Positions 3,079-8,842 of a DNA stretch of 14,806 nt are shown in pieces. The translations under genes were made by a program, and so were the position numbers. The notes beneath the pieces were generated by a model, which made no database searches, had not been told where the DNA came from, and was given only the letters and a program-made list of their open reading frames with translations. Position 1 is the stretch's first letter; every line of letters begins with the position of its first letter. Origin of the DNA: Pseudomonadota bacterium. Its GTDB lineage: Bacteria; Myxococcota; Myxococcia; Myxococcales; Myxococcaceae. The DNA lies in NCBI GenBank assembly GCA_023424585.1, contig JAFADT010000203.1, positions 1 to 14,806 of the forward strand, given 5' to 3'.

Positions 3079-3540
3079 CTAGTAGCGGATGACCTGATAG
3101 CCCTCGGCCACCAGGCGCGACAGCTCCGCCACGCCGTTGTCCACCACCTCCGCCTCCGGCTGGAGCTTCTTCGGATCAATGTCGAACTTCGCGAGCGCGT
3201 GGCCGCACGCCACCAGCCGGACGCCCGCGGCCTTCGCGGCCTGGGCCTCCTTGCGGACCGCCTCCGGAACGGCCTTCACCGTCGGGTCCAACGCCACCAC
3301 CGCGCGGCCATAGCTCAGCCACACCACGTCCGAGAGGTAGCCGGACTCCCTGGCCGTCTTCGCGTGCCGGAAGGAACTGGAGAGGGTGCCGAGGTCCTCC
3401 AGGCCCGTGGTGGAGACGAAGACGAGCTTGCCCTGGCGCGCGGGCGGCTTCTTCTCGACGGCCTGCGACGGCGCCGTGGCGACGGCGGCGAGAGGGACGA
3501 TGACGAGCGCGGCGAGGACGAGCAGCAGGTTGCGATTCAT
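3079..3540 (-). CDS. Exported DsrE/DsrF-family protein
   Basis: A 153-residue protein with an N-terminal signal peptide (MNRNLL, hydrophobic core to about residue 23, likely cleavage near ATA or SQA at 23-27). The mature part looks like a DsrE-like alpha/beta fold. It opens with KLVFVST (38-44) and ends each half with hydrophobic strands (VVWLSYGRAVV; VRLVACGHALAKFDI). C112 lies where DsrE-family sulfur carriers place their reactive cysteine. DsrE/TusD proteins move sulfane sulfur between partners, but most are cytoplasmic, so an exported one suggests periplasmic use. The ATG at 3540 has GGAG 8 bp upstream. It is the last gene of the sigma-controlled block and has its own degenerate copy of the shared promoter motif. 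The specific role is inference. Confidence 0.85.
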   Translation of the reverse strand: MNRNLLLVLAALVIVPLAAVATAPSQAVEKKPPARQGKLVFVSTTGLEDLGTLSSSFRHAKTARESGYLSDVVWLSYGRAVVALDPTVKAVPEAVRKEAQAAKAAGVRLVACGHALAKFDIDPKKLQPEAEVVDNGVAELSRLVAEGYQVIRY

Positions 3541-3584: not shown

Positions 3585-3614
3585 AGGACACGAGGAGCCC
3601 GAGCTGGGGTTCTC
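3585..3614 (-). promoter_or_regulatory. Degenerate ECF-type promoter for the dsrE-like gene
   Basis: On minus: GAGAACCCC (3614-3606), 15 bp, then TGTCCT (3590-3585). Spacing and -10 are identical to the three better copies, and the -35 core GAAC is kept. Predicted start is about 3578, leaving a 38-base leader with the ribosome site. Confidence 0.5.
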
Positions 3615-3641
3615 GCGCTCCGGGGCTGGCCGGGACGAGGC

Positions 3642-5258
3642 TCACTGCACCTGCTGGGTCCGCAGCACGGGCGGGAGGTCCTCGCCCACGACGCGCCCTT
3701 GCAGCGCGTCGTCCAGGCGCGGCTCGCTGGCGAGGAAACGGCGCACCGCCTCGTGCGCGTCCAGGTCCAGGACACGCGGCTCCTGGACGTCGGGAATCCG
3801 GCACACCATGTCCGGGGCATCGCCCTCGCGCTCGCAGGCCGTCACGGTGTAGAGGCGGTCGTCCTCCACGGGCTGGCCGCCGACCTCGAGGGCCAGCAGG
3901 CGCTCGCCCCGGGGCGCGTGGGCCCGGAAGCGCAGCGTCATCCCCGAGGGACGCGGCAGCCACCCCCCGAAGCGCTCCTCCGGGTCCTTCGCGAAGACGT
4001 TCTCCAGCTCCTGCTCCCAGAAGGCGCGAAGCTGCCGGCCGCTCACCTTGCCCGTCTTCAGCTTGTTGACGATGGGGAAGAGGTTCCACAGGTCCGCCTC
4101 GCGCAACGGCCCGGGCAGCAGCGGCGTGCCGAAGCGGAAGCCGTTGGAGAGGCCGATCTCCGTCCCCCCGGCGGCGCGGATGGCGTCGGCCAGCACGTTG
4201 TCGAGCGGGTTCTCCACCACCGCGTAGCGCGCGAGCGCGACGTCGGTGTGGCCCACCGGCGCGGCCAGCTTCGCCTCGTATGGGGCGAGGGCGGCGTCCA
4301 CCAGCCGGGCCACCTCCGGGTCCTCGGGGAAGCGCGAGGCGGTCAGCTCGATGAGCTCCCAGCGGCGCTCCACCACCCGCCCCTCCTCCACCCACAGGTC
4401 CAGCCGTCCAAGGAAGGAGCCGAAGGCACCGGGCTCCACCACCCAGCTCCCGGTCCGCGCTATCGGCGCATAGGTGCGCTCGTGCGTGTCCCCCGACAGG
4501 TGGACGTCCACCCCGGGCACCCTGGCGGCGAGGCCCACCGCCTTGGCGAGCCCCACGTGCGTCATCAACAGCACCACCTGGGCCCCCTCGCGCTCGCGCA
4601 CCTCGCGCACGAGCGCCGGCAGCGCCTCCGGGCCGTCATAGCGCAGGCCCTGGCTGTAGCCGGGAGGCTGGCGGCGCGGGACGTCCGGGTCCGTGAAGCC
4701 GACGACGGCCACCTTCACCCCGCCCACCTCCTTCACGAAGTACGGCGGGAAGAGGCGCTCACCGCTCGCCGCATCGCGCAGGTTGGCGGCGAGGAGCGGA
4801 TGCCTCAGCTCGCGAGCGCGCTGGCGCAGCACCCTGGGGCCGTACACCACCTCCCAGTTGCCAGGCACCGCGGCGTCCAGCCCGAGCGCATTGAGCGGCT
4901 CGATGAGGACGCCGCCCTCGGTGAGGGCCGCCGCGCCCGAGCCCTGAAGGGTGTCTCCGCCATCGAGCACCAGCACGTCACCGCCGCGCTCGGCGCGAAT
5001 CCGCTGGATGGCGGCGGCCACGCGGGCGAAGCCGCCAGCCTCCTCGATGCGCTCCTTCCCCTCGCGCCAGAACAGCTCGGGGTGGGCGCGCAGCTGCGCG
5101 TGCAGGTCCGCCACGTAGAGGACGGTGAGCTGCTTGCGCTGGGGCGCGGAACCGCTGGCGGCCCGCGGGGTGAGGGAGCCCGGTCGCGCCAGGGTACAGC
5201 CGGAGCCCAGGCCGCCCAGCGCGAACAGCGCGCCGAGCAGGGAGAGGAGACGCATCAT
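3642..5258 (-). CDS. SoxB-like binuclear metallohydrolase, exported lipoprotein
   Basis: A 538-residue protein of the calcineurin-like metallophosphatase plus 5'-nucleotidase C-terminal domain family. The N-terminus is a signal peptide ending LGSGC (C21). The lipobox is slightly atypical, with Gly at -3, but lipidation is likely. Metal-site motifs are DLHAQ (D51, H53), DGGDTLQGS (D102), GNWE (N134), MTH (H234) and SGDTHE (D257, H259). Several features favour SoxB over UshA-type nucleotidases: GNWEVVYG in place of GNHEFD, GFRFGTPLLPG (373-383) in place of NGGGIR, and the ENVFAKDPEERFGGW stretch (419-433), which resembles the equivalent part of SoxB. SoxB releases sulfate from sulfonated SoxYZ in the periplasm, but no SoxYZ is present here, so the substrate is unknown and a nucleotidase role stays possible. 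The first of two tandem ATGs (5258) has AAGGTG 7 bp upstream. It has its own ECF-type promoter. Confidence 0.88.
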   Translation of the reverse strand: MMRLLSLLGALFALGGLGSGCTLARPGSLTPRAASGSAPQRKQLTVLYVADLHAQLRAHPELFWREGKERIEEAGGFARVAAAIQRIRAERGGDVLVLDGGDTLQGSGAAALTEGGVLIEPLNALGLDAAVPGNWEVVYGPRVLRQRARELRHPLLAANLRDAASGERLFPPYFVKEVGGVKVAVVGFTDPDVPRRQPPGYSQGLRYDGPEALPALVREVREREGAQVVLLMTHVGLAKAVGLAARVPGVDVHLSGDTHERTYAPIARTGSWVVEPGAFGSFLGRLDLWVEEGRVVERRWELIELTASRFPEDPEVARLVDAALAPYEAKLAAPVGHTDVALARYAVVENPLDNVLADAIRAAGGTEIGLSNGFRFGTPLLPGPLREADLWNLFPIVNKLKTGKVSGRQLRAFWEQELENVFAKDPEERFGGWLPRPSGMTLRFRAHAPRGERLLALEVGGQPVEDDRLYTVTACEREGDAPDMVCRIPDVQEPRVLDLDAHEAVRRFLASEPRLDDALQGRVVGEDLPPVLRTQQVQ

Positions 5259-5291
5259 CGTGAAGCACCTTGAGTGGGAGGGACAGCGGAG

Positions 5292-5321
5292 GGGACACGA
5301 GGCGCGCCGCGCGAAGTTCCC
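5292..5321 (-). promoter_or_regulatory. ECF-type promoter for the soxB-like gene
   Basis: On minus: GGGAACTTC (5321-5313), 15 bp, then TGTCCC (5297-5292). It matches the copies before the sigma and ccdA genes in sequence and spacing. Predicted start is near 5285, giving a leader of about 27 bases that contains the AAGGTG ribosome site. Confidence 0.65.
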
Positions 5322-5344
5322 GCGGCGCGAGCCCGCGCCCCCCG

Positions 5345-5686
5345 TCACTCCCAGGCCGACATGGGGCCGAGGTTGAAGACGTCCTGGAAGCCACGCTCCC
5401 TCAGGAGGTGCTCGGCGCGGCTGCTGCGCGCGCCACTGCGGCAGTAGATGACGAAGGGCTTCTCCGGCGAGCCGAGCTCGGCGAGCCGCCGGGGCAGCTC
5501 CTCCACGGGGATGTTCACCGCGCCGGGAAGGTGCCCGGCGGCGAACTCCTCCGGCGTGCGGACATCCACCAGGGTCGCGCCTGCCGCCACCCGCTGGTGG
5601 GCCTCGGCTCCGACGGAGCGCCCGTGCACACAGGAGACGAGGAACAGCCCGGCGAACAGGACAGCGGCGGCGAGAAAGGACCTCAC
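5345..5686 (-). CDS. Lipoprotein single-domain rhodanese
   Basis: A 113-residue protein from the GTG at 5686, which has GGAG 7 bp upstream. An in-frame ATG at 5758 would add 24 residues that do not look like a signal peptide. The N-terminus is a lipoprotein signal ending LVSC (C19). The rhodanese domain follows, with DVRTPEEFAAGHLPGAVNIP (41-60) and the active-site loop CRSGAR (C82). Rhodaneses transfer sulfane sulfur through a cysteine persulfide. The lipid anchor places this one on the periplasmic side or the outer membrane. It lies 125 bp downstream of the ccdA-thioredoxin gene, with no copy of the ECF motif in that gap, so it is probably co-transcribed with it. The soxB-like gene follows after 86 bp with its own promoter. 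Sulfur donor and acceptor are not known. Confidence 0.9.
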   Translation of the reverse strand: MRSFLAAAVLFAGLFLVSCVHGRSVGAEAHQRVAAGATLVDVRTPEEFAAGHLPGAVNIPVEELPRRLAELGSPEKPFVIYCRSGARSSRAEHLLRERGFQDVFNLGPMSAWE

Positions 5687-5811
5687 GGAGTGGCTCCAAC
5701 CGGGCCCAGCGGCCGCTGGCCCCTGGGGAAATGCGGTACAGCGGGTGAGAGCCCCCAAGGCGGCAAGAGGATTCGCCCCCGCCTCGCGCGAGGCGCTCCG
5801 CGGCGGTTCGG

Positions 5812-7014
5812 TCAGGAGCCCGAGCCGTCGTCGCCCGCTGACGGGAGACCGGAGGCCCCCGGAGGGAGGAGCCCGGCGCAGCGGGTCCCCGCGATGGACT
5901 CCAGGCCCTCGCGAATGGACGTCAGGGACTGCTCGCCCACCCGGCGCGTCACCTCCTGGCCAACGCTATCGAGGAAGAGGAACGTGGGGACGCCGCGGAT
6001 GCCGTGGCGGGCGGCGGCCTGCCGCCCCTCGGTCGTCCCGACATCGACGCGGAGGACGCCGACGCCCTGGCCCGCGCAATGGTGCTCGGCCAGGGCGACC
6101 ACGGGCTCCATCCGCTGGCAGACGGGGCAGCCGTGGCTCACGAACTCCACCATCGTCGGGCGCTCGAGCTGGGACAGCGCGGAGGGGCCGCGGGTGGACA
6201 GCACGAAGCCCTCCTCCGGGAGCGCGCACGCGCCGCCCCCTTCGGAGGTACACGCCGCCTCCGCCGGGGTGGAGGGAGAGGCCGAGCCGTCGACCTCGGC
6301 CACCGCGGCGGGCGCCTCCTCCGACGGCATGAGCACTCCCAGCGAGTCGGTGAACAGCAGCACGCCCAACCCGGCGAGCAGCGCCCCCGTGGCGAGCTCG
6401 AACTTGCGCACATGCCGCTTCACCCGGTCCAGCCACCGCAGCGCCAGCGGCGCGACGGCGGCCACGAGCAGCAGCGGAACGGACAGGCCCGCGGCATAGG
6501 TGCCGAGGTAGAGCGCCCCCAGGGCGGGCTCCGACGTGGAGGAGGCGGTATAGGTGAGCACCGCGCCGAGCACCGGCCCGATGCACGGCGTCCACCCCAG
6601 GGCGAAGGCCGCCCCGAAGAGGAAGGCCCCCAGCAGGCTGCCGCCCCGCCGCACCCGCCCGAGCAGGGGCCGGGCCTCCCCCTCCAGCCAGGGAACCTGG
6701 ATGAGCCCGAGCTGCTTGAGCCCCAGCAGGAAGAGCGCGAGCCCGCCGAACTGGAGGAGCCCCCCGCGGTGCGCCGCGAGCGCCCCGCCCACGGCGGTGG
6801 CCGCCATCCCCAGCGCGACGAACACGGTGCCGAGCCCGAGCGAGAACGCCAGCGCCACGCCCCATGGCCGCCGCGCACCGCCGTCCGCCTCCCGCAGCTG
6901 GGACAGGGACACGCCCGCGAGGAAGGACAGGTAGAGCGGGATGAGCGGGAGGACGCAGGGCGACAGGAACGTCAGCAGACCCGCGAGGAAGATGCCGAAG
7001 AGGCCGAGGCTCAT
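5812..7014 (-). CDS. CcdA/DsbD-type membrane thiol transporter fused to a C-terminal thioredoxin domain
   Basis: A 400-residue protein. Residues 4-225 contain about six membrane segments of the CcdA/DsbD-beta family, with the transmembrane redox pair C20 (LSPCVLP) and C144 (WTPCIGP). These proteins carry electrons from cytoplasmic thioredoxin to the periplasm. A linker (about 230-270) has C255 and C263. The thioredoxin-like domain (about 270-375) has CPVC (C296, C299) and the cis-proline loop GVPT (342-345). C313 and C379 are extra. It resembles DsbD without the alpha domain, or a SoxV (CcdA-like) and SoxW (thioredoxin) pair in one chain, which suits the adjacent SoxB-like gene. The ATG at 7014 has no clear Shine-Dalgarno and sits about where the predicted promoter would start transcription. 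Cytochrome c maturation is an alternative role, but no ccm genes are near. Confidence 0.9.
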   Translation of the reverse strand: MSLGLFGIFLAGLLTFLSPCVLPLIPLYLSFLAGVSLSQLREADGGARRPWGVALAFSLGLGTVFVALGMAATAVGGALAAHRGGLLQFGGLALFLLGLKQLGLIQVPWLEGEARPLLGRVRRGGSLLGAFLFGAAFALGWTPCIGPVLGAVLTYTASSTSEPALGALYLGTYAAGLSVPLLLVAAVAPLALRWLDRVKRHVRKFELATGALLAGLGVLLFTDSLGVLMPSEEAPAAVAEVDGSASPSTPAEAACTSEGGGACALPEEGFVLSTRGPSALSQLERPTMVEFVSHGCPVCQRMEPVVALAEHHCAGQGVGVLRVDVGTTEGRQAAARHGIRGVPTFLFLDSVGQEVTRRVGEQSLTSIREGLESIAGTRCAGLLPPGASGLPSAGDDGSGS

Positions 7015-7020
7015 GCCCCG

Positions 7021-7050
7021 AGGACACGGCCGGGAACCTCGAAAGTTCCC
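7021..7050 (-). promoter_or_regulatory. ECF-type promoter for the ccdA-thioredoxin gene
   Basis: On minus: GGGAACTTT (7050-7042), 15 bp, then TGTCCT (7026-7021). The -35 and -10 hexamers are identical to those before the sigma gene. The predicted start is about 7014, at the ATG itself. Confidence 0.65.
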
Positions 7051-7054
7051 GGCC
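7028..7054. repeat. Perfect 10-bp inverted repeat overlapping the ccdA promoter
   Basis: GGCCGGGAAC (7028-7037) and GTTCCCGGCC (7045-7054) are separated by 7 bases (CTCGAAA). The right arm contains the -35 GGGAAC on minus. The left arm fills much of the spacer. It could be an operator or a hairpin at the end of the sigma/anti-sigma message. Confidence 0.65.
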
Positions 7055-7062
7055 TCGCGACC

Positions 7063-7821
7063 TCACGGGGTCAGGCGGGCCAGGGCGTCGACGAGCACCG
7101 GCTGCTCCAGCTCGGAGACGGCGAGCGCGGGCTGCCCGCCCCCGCGAGGCGCCACACAGATGCGCTCACCGATGGGGCCCTGCGTGCAGCGCGTCTCCTC
7201 CCCGGCGAAGCTCGCCGCCTCCCGCGCCGCGGGCGAGCCCGGCGGCGGAAGGAAGAGCGTCATCGCCTTGCCCCCCTCGTGCCGGTACAGCAGCGAGGCG
7301 GCGAGCTGCCCATGCAGCCGGCAGCGGCGAGCGCCCAGCAGTCTCGCGCCGGGCACCACCGGCACCTCCACCGCATAGCCCACCTCCCGCACCACCCAGG
7401 CCTTCACCTCGGCCGGGTCCGCGGACTCGAACTCGCAGGGAGCGGCGCGCGAGAAGGCCTTGAGGTGGTGTCGCTCGAGGTCCATCGCCAGCGCGTCATT
7501 CATGCCGCGGGGCCACGACGTCCAGAGGATGCCCACGGACGCGACCGCCGCGGCCAGGCCCACCGTCCACCGTCGCCGGAAGGCGGGGCGGGAGCGCGGG
7601 GCCAGGCGGGAGACACGCGCCCGCAGCTCCGGCGGCACGTGCGTCTCAGCGGCGGCCTGGGCCTTCAGCGCCTCGCGCAGCGAGCCATAGCGGGCCACCT
7701 CCCGGGCACAGCCCACGCAGCGGGTCAGGTGTTGCTCCACGGCCTGCCGCTCATCCGCCGGGCCCTCCCCATCGAACCACGCGGAGAGACGCTCCTGCCA
7801 CGCGGGGCTACAGGCTTCCAT
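7063..7821 (-). CDS. Membrane-anchored zinc-finger anti-sigma factor
   Basis: A 252-residue protein. The N-terminal zf-HC2 anti-sigma domain shows C4, then HLTRCVGC giving H31, C35 and C38. One membrane segment spans about residues 86-101, so the C-terminal 150 residues would be periplasmic. That part contains the stretch VKAWVVREVGYAVEVP followed by GARRCRLHGQLAASLLYRH, of a kind found in the sensor part of other anti-sigma factors. It has four cysteines (C129, C167, C212, C222) and an HH pair (118-119), so redox or metal sensing is possible but unproven. The start codon lies inside the end of the sigma gene (14-bp overlap), a standard coupled sigma/anti-sigma pair. It should hold that sigma factor inactive at the membrane. 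Confidence 0.9.
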   Translation of the reverse strand: MEACSPAWQERLSAWFDGEGPADERQAVEQHLTRCVGCAREVARYGSLREALKAQAAAETHVPPELRARVSRLAPRSRPAFRRRWTVGLAAAVASVGILWTSWPRGMNDALAMDLERHHLKAFSRAAPCEFESADPAEVKAWVVREVGYAVEVPVVPGARLLGARRCRLHGQLAASLLYRHEGGKAMTLFLPPPGSPAAREAASFAGEETRCTQGPIGERICVAPRGGGQPALAVSELEQPVLVDALARLTP

Positions 7822-8329
7822 GAGCCTTCTCCTTCTCCAGGAAGTCGAGCATCGCCCCCCGGGCCCGCGCCAGGCGCGAGCGCACGGTGCCCACCGGGCA
7901 GCCCTGGACCCGGGCGATCTCCTCGTAACTCAGCTCTTCGACTTCGCGCAGCCACAGCGCATCACGCCACTCCGGGGCCAGCGACTCCAGCGCCGCCTTC
8001 ATGCCCGAGCTGAGCGTGTGGGCGTGCAGCTCCGCCTCCAGGTCCGCGGAGGGCTCGGGAGCGGCCTCCTTCCCCAAATCGCCCTCCAGCACCTCCAGCC
8101 GGGGGCGCAGGCCGCGCCGGGAGTTGAGGAAGACGGCGCGCTGCACGGCGAGCAGCCATCCCTTGAGCCGCTCCGGGTCTCGCAGCTCGTCGCGCCGCTC
8201 CAGCGCGCGCGCCACCGTCTCCTGCACCAGGTCATCCGCCTCGGAGGCGCTGCCGGTCAGCCGGCGGCCCACCCGTCGCAGGGCTGGCAGGTGCTCCAGG
8301 GCACGTTCGATGAAGGACCGGCTGCTCAC
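7808..8329 (-). CDS. ECF RNA polymerase sigma factor, first gene of the sulfur/thiol block
   Basis: A 173-residue protein from the GTG at 8329, or 178 from the in-frame GTG at 8344. Region 2 carries ASEADDLVQETVARAL and the melting segment RLKGWLLAVQRAVFLNSRR. Region 4 carries LAPEWRDALWLREVEELS and the helix-turn-helix YEEIARVQGCPVGTVRSRLA. Length is normal for an ECF factor. The 8344 start would overlap the predicted -10 of its own promoter and lacks a ribosome site, so 8329 is preferred, although GGGGAG is only 2 bases upstream of it. It overlaps the downstream anti-sigma gene by 14 bp. A GGGAACTTT-N15-TGTCCT element lies just upstream and the same element precedes three downstream genes, so it probably drives its own operon and this regulon. 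Confidence 0.9.
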   Translation of the reverse strand: MSSRSFIERALEHLPALRRVGRRLTGSASEADDLVQETVARALERRDELRDPERLKGWLLAVQRAVFLNSRRGLRPRLEVLEGDLGKEAAPEPSADLEAELHAHTLSSGMKAALESLAPEWRDALWLREVEELSYEEIARVQGCPVGTVRSRLARARGAMLDFLEKEKAHGSL

Positions 8330-8337
8330 GTCTCCCC

Positions 8338-8367
8338 AGGACACAGGGGCGGCTGGGAAAAGTTCCC
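8338..8367 (-). promoter_or_regulatory. Autoregulatory ECF-type promoter of the sigma/anti-sigma operon
   Basis: On minus: GGGAACTTT (8367-8359), 15 bp, then TGTCCT (8343-8338). The GGAAC -35 is typical of ECF promoters. The predicted start is about 8331, leaving almost no leader before the GTG at 8329. Confidence 0.65.
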
Positions 8368-8494: not shown

Positions 8495-8842
8495 ATGCGC
8501 TTGTCATTCATTGCGGCGTTGCTGTCGGTGGGCCTCTTCGCGGGCTGTGGCGGCGTGGAGCAGGAGGCGCAGGAGGAGGAAGTGACGGCCGCCCTGGCCC
8601 CTCCGCCCTGTGAGCGCATCTGCATCCCCCTCTACAACCGCTGTACGCGGAGCGCGACGACGCCCGAGCAGCAGGCCCAGTGCGGGCAGGACCTGGACGA
8701 CTGCCTCCGGGGCTGCGACCCCGTGCAGGCCATGCGTCCGCCGCCGTGCGAGGACGCGTGCGACCTGGCCTCTAACGCCTGCGCGCGCGGCGCCTCGACG
8801 CAGGAGCAGAAGGACGTCTGCGCCGCCGAGCGGGTGGACTGA
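8495..8842 (+). CDS. Small Cys-repeat lipoprotein, probably shortened by a frameshift
   Basis: A 115-residue protein with a lipoprotein signal ending FAGC (C18), then an acidic linker (EQEAQEEE). Two copies of a Cys-rich repeat follow. Each starts PPPCE and has spacing C-x3-C-x6-C-x12-C. Copy 1 is C39, C43, C50, C63, continuing to C70 and C74. Copy 2 is C85, C89, C96, C109. The TGA falls exactly where the C70 equivalent should be, and a 4-bp tandem duplication creates it (see the repeat at 8837). Secreted disulfide-rich lipoproteins of this kind are common in myxobacteria; no function is recognised. The ATG has AAGGA 7 bp upstream. It is divergent from the ECF sigma operon across 165 bp, with no clear promoter on plus. 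Whether it is functionally linked to that operon is unknown. Confidence 0.8.
   Translation: MRLSFIAALLSVGLFAGCGGVEQEAQEEEVTAALAPPPCERICIPLYNRCTRSATTPEQQAQCGQDLDDCLRGCDPVQAMRPPPCEDACDLASNACARGASTQEQKDVCAAERVD

Follow-up and report, generated by a model that had tools for sequence, protein, structure and literature searches.

Repeated ECF-type promoter motifs and a probable sulfur-linked regulon at a sigma/anti-sigma locus of the Myxococcaceae

Gene content of the locus and its candidate promoter sites

We analyzed a 14,806-nucleotide stretch of DNA (contig JAFADT010000203.1, assembly GCA_023424585.1; referred to as the window), whose proteins match Myxococcaceae and which contains an extracytoplasmic function (ECF) sigma factor gene together with repeated promoter-like sites on the same strand. 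All genes and sites of this cluster lie on the minus strand. The sigma gene (7808-8329; Pfam Sigma70_r2 and Sigma70_r4_2) begins with a GTG at 8329 and overlaps the gene of an anti-sigma factor containing a zf-HC2 domain (7063-7821). Further downstream are encoded a CcdA/DsbD-type membrane protein fused to thioredoxin (5812-7014, ATG start; DsbD_TM, Thioredoxin) and a rhodanese with a lipoprotein-like N-terminus (5345-5758; Rhodanese E 2.7e-20), the likely start of which is, by reading, a GTG near 5685. These are followed by a SoxB-like metallohydrolase with a lipoprotein-like signal (3642-5258; TIGR04486 SoxB, 279.9 bits) and a DsrE-family protein with an N-terminal signal or anchor (3079-3540; DsrE E 1.5e-08), both N-termini being assigned by reading.

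The initial annotation had described four copies of one ECF promoter motif, all of them intergenic, and we find the four sites as described. The sites preceding the sigma gene (8338-8367, GGGAACTTT-N15-TGTCCT), the ccdA-thioredoxin gene (7021-7050) and the soxB-like gene (5292-5321) match GGGAACTTY-N15-TGTCCY exactly, while the site preceding dsrE (3585-3614, GAGAACCCC-N15-TGTCCT) does so with three mismatches. Their intergenic position depends on the GTG start of the sigma gene at 8329; the mechanically called start at 8344 would overlap the sigma site. CG or TG had been noted directly before TGTCC in three of the spacers, which is an undercount as all four end in this way. Judged from the aligned sites, YGTGTC describes the conserved downstream box better, with CT frequently following it, so that the core of the sigma site becomes GGAACTTY-N13-YGTGTC at 8366-8340. 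In the window, the core boxes GGAACTT[CT] and [CT]GTGTC yield three matches at one spacing and none at each of ten other spacings. The rhodanese gene has no site of its own and is probably transcribed by read-through from ccdA.

Conservation of the motif with the sigma gene in a second class of myxobacteria

Among the best 80 loci of a contig scan, the sigma factor found one Sorangium metagenome-assembled genome (MAG) at 57% identity, the others being at 31-41%, and this Sorangium-labelled locus (L001) led to the comparison set used here, its class of 317 genomes. A draw of 377 genomes from the phylum gave three sigma matches at 1e-40, with the HPPD-like dioxygenase of the window reaching at most 70% identity, and a scan of viral contigs gave a single weak match of 45 residues (E 2e-4). 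Within the class, the sigma search reached E 1e-40 or better in 15 of the 317 genomes (55-60% identity). Genomes without a match at this threshold are referred to as sigma-lacking; per genome, no more than 11 first-look candidates were scored. In genome G001, the best match scored 172.8 bits, twice the 86.4 bits of the next paralogue.

Regions around the 15 sigma genes were scanned with a loose pattern (GGAAC, 15-21 bases, [TC]GTC), and a matrix was built from 16 sites upstream of the sigma transcription unit (at locus L110 also upstream of dsrE), excluding the window sequence itself. Spacing is identical in all 16 sites, each of the two positions following GGAAC is a T in 15 of 16, and a G precedes TGTC in every one. 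Applied to the window, this matrix ranks the ccdA (32.5 bits), sigma (29.7), soxB (26.6) and dsrE (5.6) sites first to fourth, with the fifth position at 3.2 bits; when weakly informative columns are set to zero, the same four sites keep these ranks and the fifth scores 3.7. In 200 shuffled windows one position in total reached 20 bits, while scores of at least 5.5 arose in 52.5% of the shuffles, on average 0.67 times per shuffled window. The three strong sites are therefore secure and the dsrE site, on score alone, lies within chance.

In the second class, orthologous sigma genes are preceded by the same two boxes with unchanged spacing, located upstream of the transcription unit to which they belong. 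This links the sigma factor to the motif and supports the autoregulation proposed by the initial annotation. That the sigma factor reads all four sites, as was also proposed, is supported for the sigma, ccdA and soxB sites, and is only plausible for the dsrE site taken by itself.

The core pattern occurs in 28 of the 317 genomes, namely in all 15 sigma-bearing and in 13 of the 302 sigma-lacking ones (Fisher p 2e-18, a value that overstates independence as the genomes are related). The 14 matches in the 13 sigma-lacking genomes correspond to a rate close to that of a reversed control pattern (19 matches in the 317 genomes, counted by eye). Fourteen of the 17 core matches in sigma-bearing genomes fall in the sigma gene cluster, and 14 of these 15 genomes have such a match; in G503 the core match is the second, dsrE-soxB site and the sigma site is one base off. 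The other three matches are L153 (G582:C275), L154, which is described below, and L155 (G584:C134, the only core match of G584). L153 and L155 lie outside the sigma cluster, no sulfur gene was recognized by reading within about 2.5 kb downstream of either, and both are probably due to chance. A near-consensus scan of the 15 sigma-bearing genomes (extended pattern, one mismatch, about 169 Mb in all) returned 16 matches distributed over 14 genomes, compared with three matches for the reversed control. Of the 16 matches, 14 fall in the sigma cluster and one is at G569:C134. Within genomes that encode the sigma factor, the near-consensus motif is close to unique. By this pattern, the regulon in that class would comprise one or two promoters, and weaker sites would be missed.

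Two alternative explanations of the sites bear on these data. The first is that the repeats arose by chance or as an artefact of base composition in GC-rich DNA. Allowing up to three mismatches, the window contains four matches where 0.54 are expected from 200 shuffles, and one of the 200 shuffled windows also reached four. The three exact matches, the conservation across classes and the background level of the control patterns leave this explanation with practically no probability, and for the three strong sites a chance origin is refuted. The second is that the motif is not a promoter of the sigma factor but the operator of a separate transcription factor which controls the sulfur genes together with the sigma operon. 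The site of such a factor would likewise be conserved and clustered, the ccdA site holds an inverted repeat, GGGAAC-N7-GTTCCC, and a gene for an ArsR-rhodanese fusion lies just upstream of the site at locus L112. However, none of the other window sites shows the inverted repeat, the sites point towards a gene with two boxes at fixed spacing and a GGAAC -35 element as in ECF promoters, and presence of the motif tracks the sigma gene across genomes. We consider an operator improbable.

Target genes and a proposed sulfur-compound regulon

Searching the 15 sigma loci with the window proteins (tblastn) located sigma and anti-sigma genes at every locus, one anti-sigma gene being cut by a contig end, CcdA-thioredoxin at 13 loci (the thioredoxin part only in four of these) and the SoxB-like protein at two. 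The genes between site and sigma vary. L104 and L112 have a DsrE-family gene in this position and L111 has a DoxD-DoxA fusion; L108 reads similarly, and L113 has near-identical sequence after its site. L110 carries one site in front of sigma and a second in front of dsrE-soxB. At L112, directly upstream of the dsrE-sigma unit, an ArsR-type regulator fused to a rhodanese domain is encoded (L112:1127-1783), which is possibly a second sulfur-responsive regulator.

L154 is located on a second contig of a sigma-bearing genome (G362) and was found by the motif alone. The match ends 19 nt before a plausible start of a soxB-like gene, which is followed by dsrE, and the contigs carrying sigma and this site are both under 4 kb. 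Of the observations made here, this one comes closest to a blind prediction.

Starting from these associations of the motif with sigma and target genes, which were computed here, we consider it likely that an autoregulated ECF sigma/anti-sigma pair drives a small local set of sulfur-compound genes. We infer that the sigma factor encoded at 8329-7808 recognizes promoters with a GGAACTTY -35 element and a YGTGTC -10 element at fixed spacing. As the sigma gene bears the same promoter, it would constitute an autoregulated switch. The same promoter would drive the ccdA-thioredoxin unit, probably together with rhodanese, and the soxB-like unit, probably together with dsrE, and the separate dsrE site would be a weak candidate promoter. 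Judging by the shared sites, the genes behind them are very probably switched on together. The anti-sigma factor would hold the sigma factor until an extracytoplasmic signal releases it. The outputs, namely the SoxB-like hydrolase, rhodanese, DsrE-type protein and CcdA/thioredoxin, are predicted from their N-termini to be exported or membrane-bound; some relatives would add a DoxD-DoxA thiosulfate:quinone oxidoreductase. They may convert thiosulfate, tetrathionate or sulfane sulfur and also deliver reducing power across the membrane. DoxD is described as a thiosulfate:quinone enzyme whose product is tetrathionate, and a conversion of tetrathionate by SoxB has been proposed (PMC12345210). Based on these roles, we infer a coherent route from thiosulfate via tetrathionate to sulfate and sulfane sulfur, the latter handled by rhodanese and DsrE.

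Several points weigh against this sigma-driven sulfur regulon. The matrix sites were picked with a pattern derived from the window, so the letters GGAAC and [TC]GTC were partly imposed; this does not apply to the single spacing, to the TT following GGAAC or to the G preceding TGTC. Some of the 15 genomes are closely related to one another, and several of their sites are near-identical. The site near the sigma gene of G584 deviates from the consensus (GGAACCAAT), and this genome yields no match in the near-consensus scan. With regard to function, the 279.9 bits of the SoxB-like protein are about half of the TIGR04486 cut-off of 550, and neither soxYZ nor soxAX was seen among the 12 distinct window proteins scanned, a scan not specifically directed at them. 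A SoxB-family search of 10 of the 15 sigma-bearing genomes found a match near the strength of the window protein only in G554 (274.3 bits), where it sits in the sigma locus; the next best reached 108.7 bits and none of the ten genomes passes the cut-off. Given this single match of comparable strength, the SoxB-like protein counts as an occasional member of the regulon. Finally, dsrE of L154 begins about 21 nt after soxB, an arrangement in which dsrE needs no separate promoter.

As the score lies below the curated family cut-off, we do not claim a true SoxB thiosulfohydrolase and call the protein SoxB-like. Its nearest solved relative is SoxB (2wdc, E 5.7e-50), the next non-SoxB structure being 3ivd (E 4.9e-28).

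The arrangement in L154 bears directly on the fourth site. In an alternative with three promoters, those of sigma, ccdA and soxB, the match before dsrE would be due to chance and dsrE would be transcribed with soxB, as suggested by the single apparent soxB-dsrE unit behind one site in L154 and by the gap between 5.6 bits and the 26.6-32.5 bits of the strong sites, at a level that shuffled windows often attain. What supports the dsrE site is its place, strand and spacing. It is the fourth-best position of the window, on the right strand and with the right spacing, it lies in the 101-nt gap before dsrE, and it has a complete CGTGTCCT box. We give this three-promoter arrangement slightly less than even odds.

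The sites lie close to the predicted start codons of several genes. In the window, the sigma GTG (8329) follows YGTGTC by 10 nt and the ccdA ATG (7014) by 8 nt, with distances of 35 and 46 nt for soxB and dsrE. The corresponding distance is 9 nt for sigma in L110 (L110:638) and 12 nt for doxDA in L111 (about 6931) if the first ATG is the start. Since transcription start sites 3-6 nt past the -10 box have been used as the range for two ECF groups (PMC10880074), these starts 8-12 nt past the box predict that the mRNAs of window sigma, ccdA, L110 sigma and L111 doxDA are leaderless or nearly so.

The anti-sigma factor and comparison with known ECF systems

The sigma factor consists of 173 amino acids and is 91% identical to a Myxococcus sp. 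protein of equal length. In line with ECF (group 4) sigma factors, it contains regions 2 and 4 only and falls within about 170-200 amino acids. The HxxxCxxC zinc motif encoded by the adjoining gene is that of class I zinc anti-sigma factors, and, at the level of sequence, autoregulation is indicated by the regulon motif in the sigma promoter and its conservation upstream of the sigma unit in relatives. The anti-sigma factor shares 100% identity with its counterpart in Corallococcus sp. RDP092CA. Its zinc-type N-terminus (C4, H31, C35 and C38; zf-HC2) is followed by a hydrophobic stretch, by reading at about residues 84-103, and a C-terminal domain with four nearly invariant cysteines (C129, C167, C212 and C222), in which residues of about 131-252 may resemble the C-terminal fold of RseB/MucB.

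This cysteine-bearing domain is possibly the sensor. We tentatively hypothesize, leaning towards doubt, that zinc domain, membrane segment and RseB/MucB-C-like periplasmic lobe form a one-piece sensor that reads sulfane sulfur or thiosulfate via disulfides, with the regulon supplying both sulfur enzymes and the CcdA-thioredoxin that resets the sensor, thus closing a redox loop in two myxobacterial classes. The same domain could also point to a general response to envelope thiol/disulfide or oxidative stress, in which the sulfur enzymes would act as scavengers and the signal would be misfolding or oxidation instead of a sulfur compound. Consistent with this, the putative RseB/MucB-C-like fold and the four nearly invariant cysteines are accompanied by CcdA/thioredoxin as the most constant target (13 of 15 loci, compared with 2 of 15 for the SoxB-like protein). 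However, SoxB-like protein, rhodanese, DsrE and DoxD-DoxA are all tied to sulfur compounds and recur in differing arrangements, and no chaperone or protease gene was noticed behind the sites in the open reading frames read, with no dedicated search made. A general stress regulon is in our view unlikely, and regulation of sulfur-compound genes remains the preferred reading.

The closest known systems are RpoE4 of Sinorhizobium meliloti and SigE of Starkeya novella, ECF26 factors of sulfite oxidation that likewise combine a sigma gene beside an anti-sigma gene with a small regulon (PMC3511301, PMC6527743). Both are activated on thiosulfate or taurine and target a sulfur-compound enzyme; RpoE4 is autoregulated, and SigE did not activate its own promoter (PMC3511301, PMC6527743). 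Their targets are genes for a sulfite-oxidizing enzyme, cytochrome c and pseudoazurin, in contrast to the SoxB-like protein, CcdA, rhodanese and DsrE found here. The ECF26 consensus of GGAAT (-35) and CGTC (-10) also differs from GGAACTTY and YGTGTC (PMC6527743). We do not claim ECF26 membership. ECF factors of Arcobacter likewise regulate soxB and sulfur oxidation, but there with a soxCDXYZAB cluster and with nitrate reductase and citrate transport as further targets, unlike the system described here (PMC3445524).

The -35 element GGAACTT is shared with the E. coli RpoE-RseA-RseB system (PMC8103513). RseB/MucB, found in this system and in AlgU-MucA-MucB of Pseudomonas, has a C-terminal domain that the C-terminal part of the anti-sigma factor described here may resemble. 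In contrast to those systems, the putative RseB-C-like fold is part of the anti-sigma factor itself and carries four conserved cysteines, and no separate RseB-like gene was noticed, though none was specifically searched for. Compared with RpoE and AlgU, the regulon is tiny and sulfur-linked. CorE and CorE2 of Myxococcus xanthus are likewise myxobacterial ECF sigma factors and are metal-dependent (PMC8999054). In CorE, a C-terminal metal-sensing extension replaces the anti-sigma factor (PMC8999054), and CorE-type regulation is ruled out here by the 173-amino acid sigma factor and its zinc-type anti-sigma partner.

No description of this regulon was found in the titles and abstract openings of open-licence literature. 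The logic of ECF-controlled sulfur metabolism is already known from RpoE4 and SigE; this regulon is new and well supported. Many myxobacterial ECF sigma factors are without a known target; in the present case, sequence comparison by itself connects a motif with a sigma factor, an anti-sigma factor and a short target list. These targets suggest that sulfur compounds are handled by members of a group otherwise known mainly for predation. With a near-consensus motif that is close to unique in genomes of up to 16 Mb, the switch lends itself to clean testing, and the anti-sigma factor with its cysteines provides a concrete sensor hypothesis. Sulfur-oxidation genes have been reported in Myxococcota MAGs from marine sediment (PMC12345210).

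Three further features of the window lie outside the set of genes behind the sites. A small lipoprotein-like protein with repeated cysteine motifs is encoded divergently (8495-8842, plus strand) and gave no match in a Pfam and NCBIfam scan. On the minus strand, a second ECF sigma factor (2841-2011), whose gene is preceded by none of the four sites, carries a zf-HC2 zinc finger behind the sigma regions of the same protein. The HPPD-like dioxygenase (10435-9272, minus strand; Glyoxalase domains) is accompanied on the same strand by open reading frames resembling maleylacetoacetate isomerase and fumarylacetoacetase, named by reading only, which together would form a putative tyrosine-degradation cluster.

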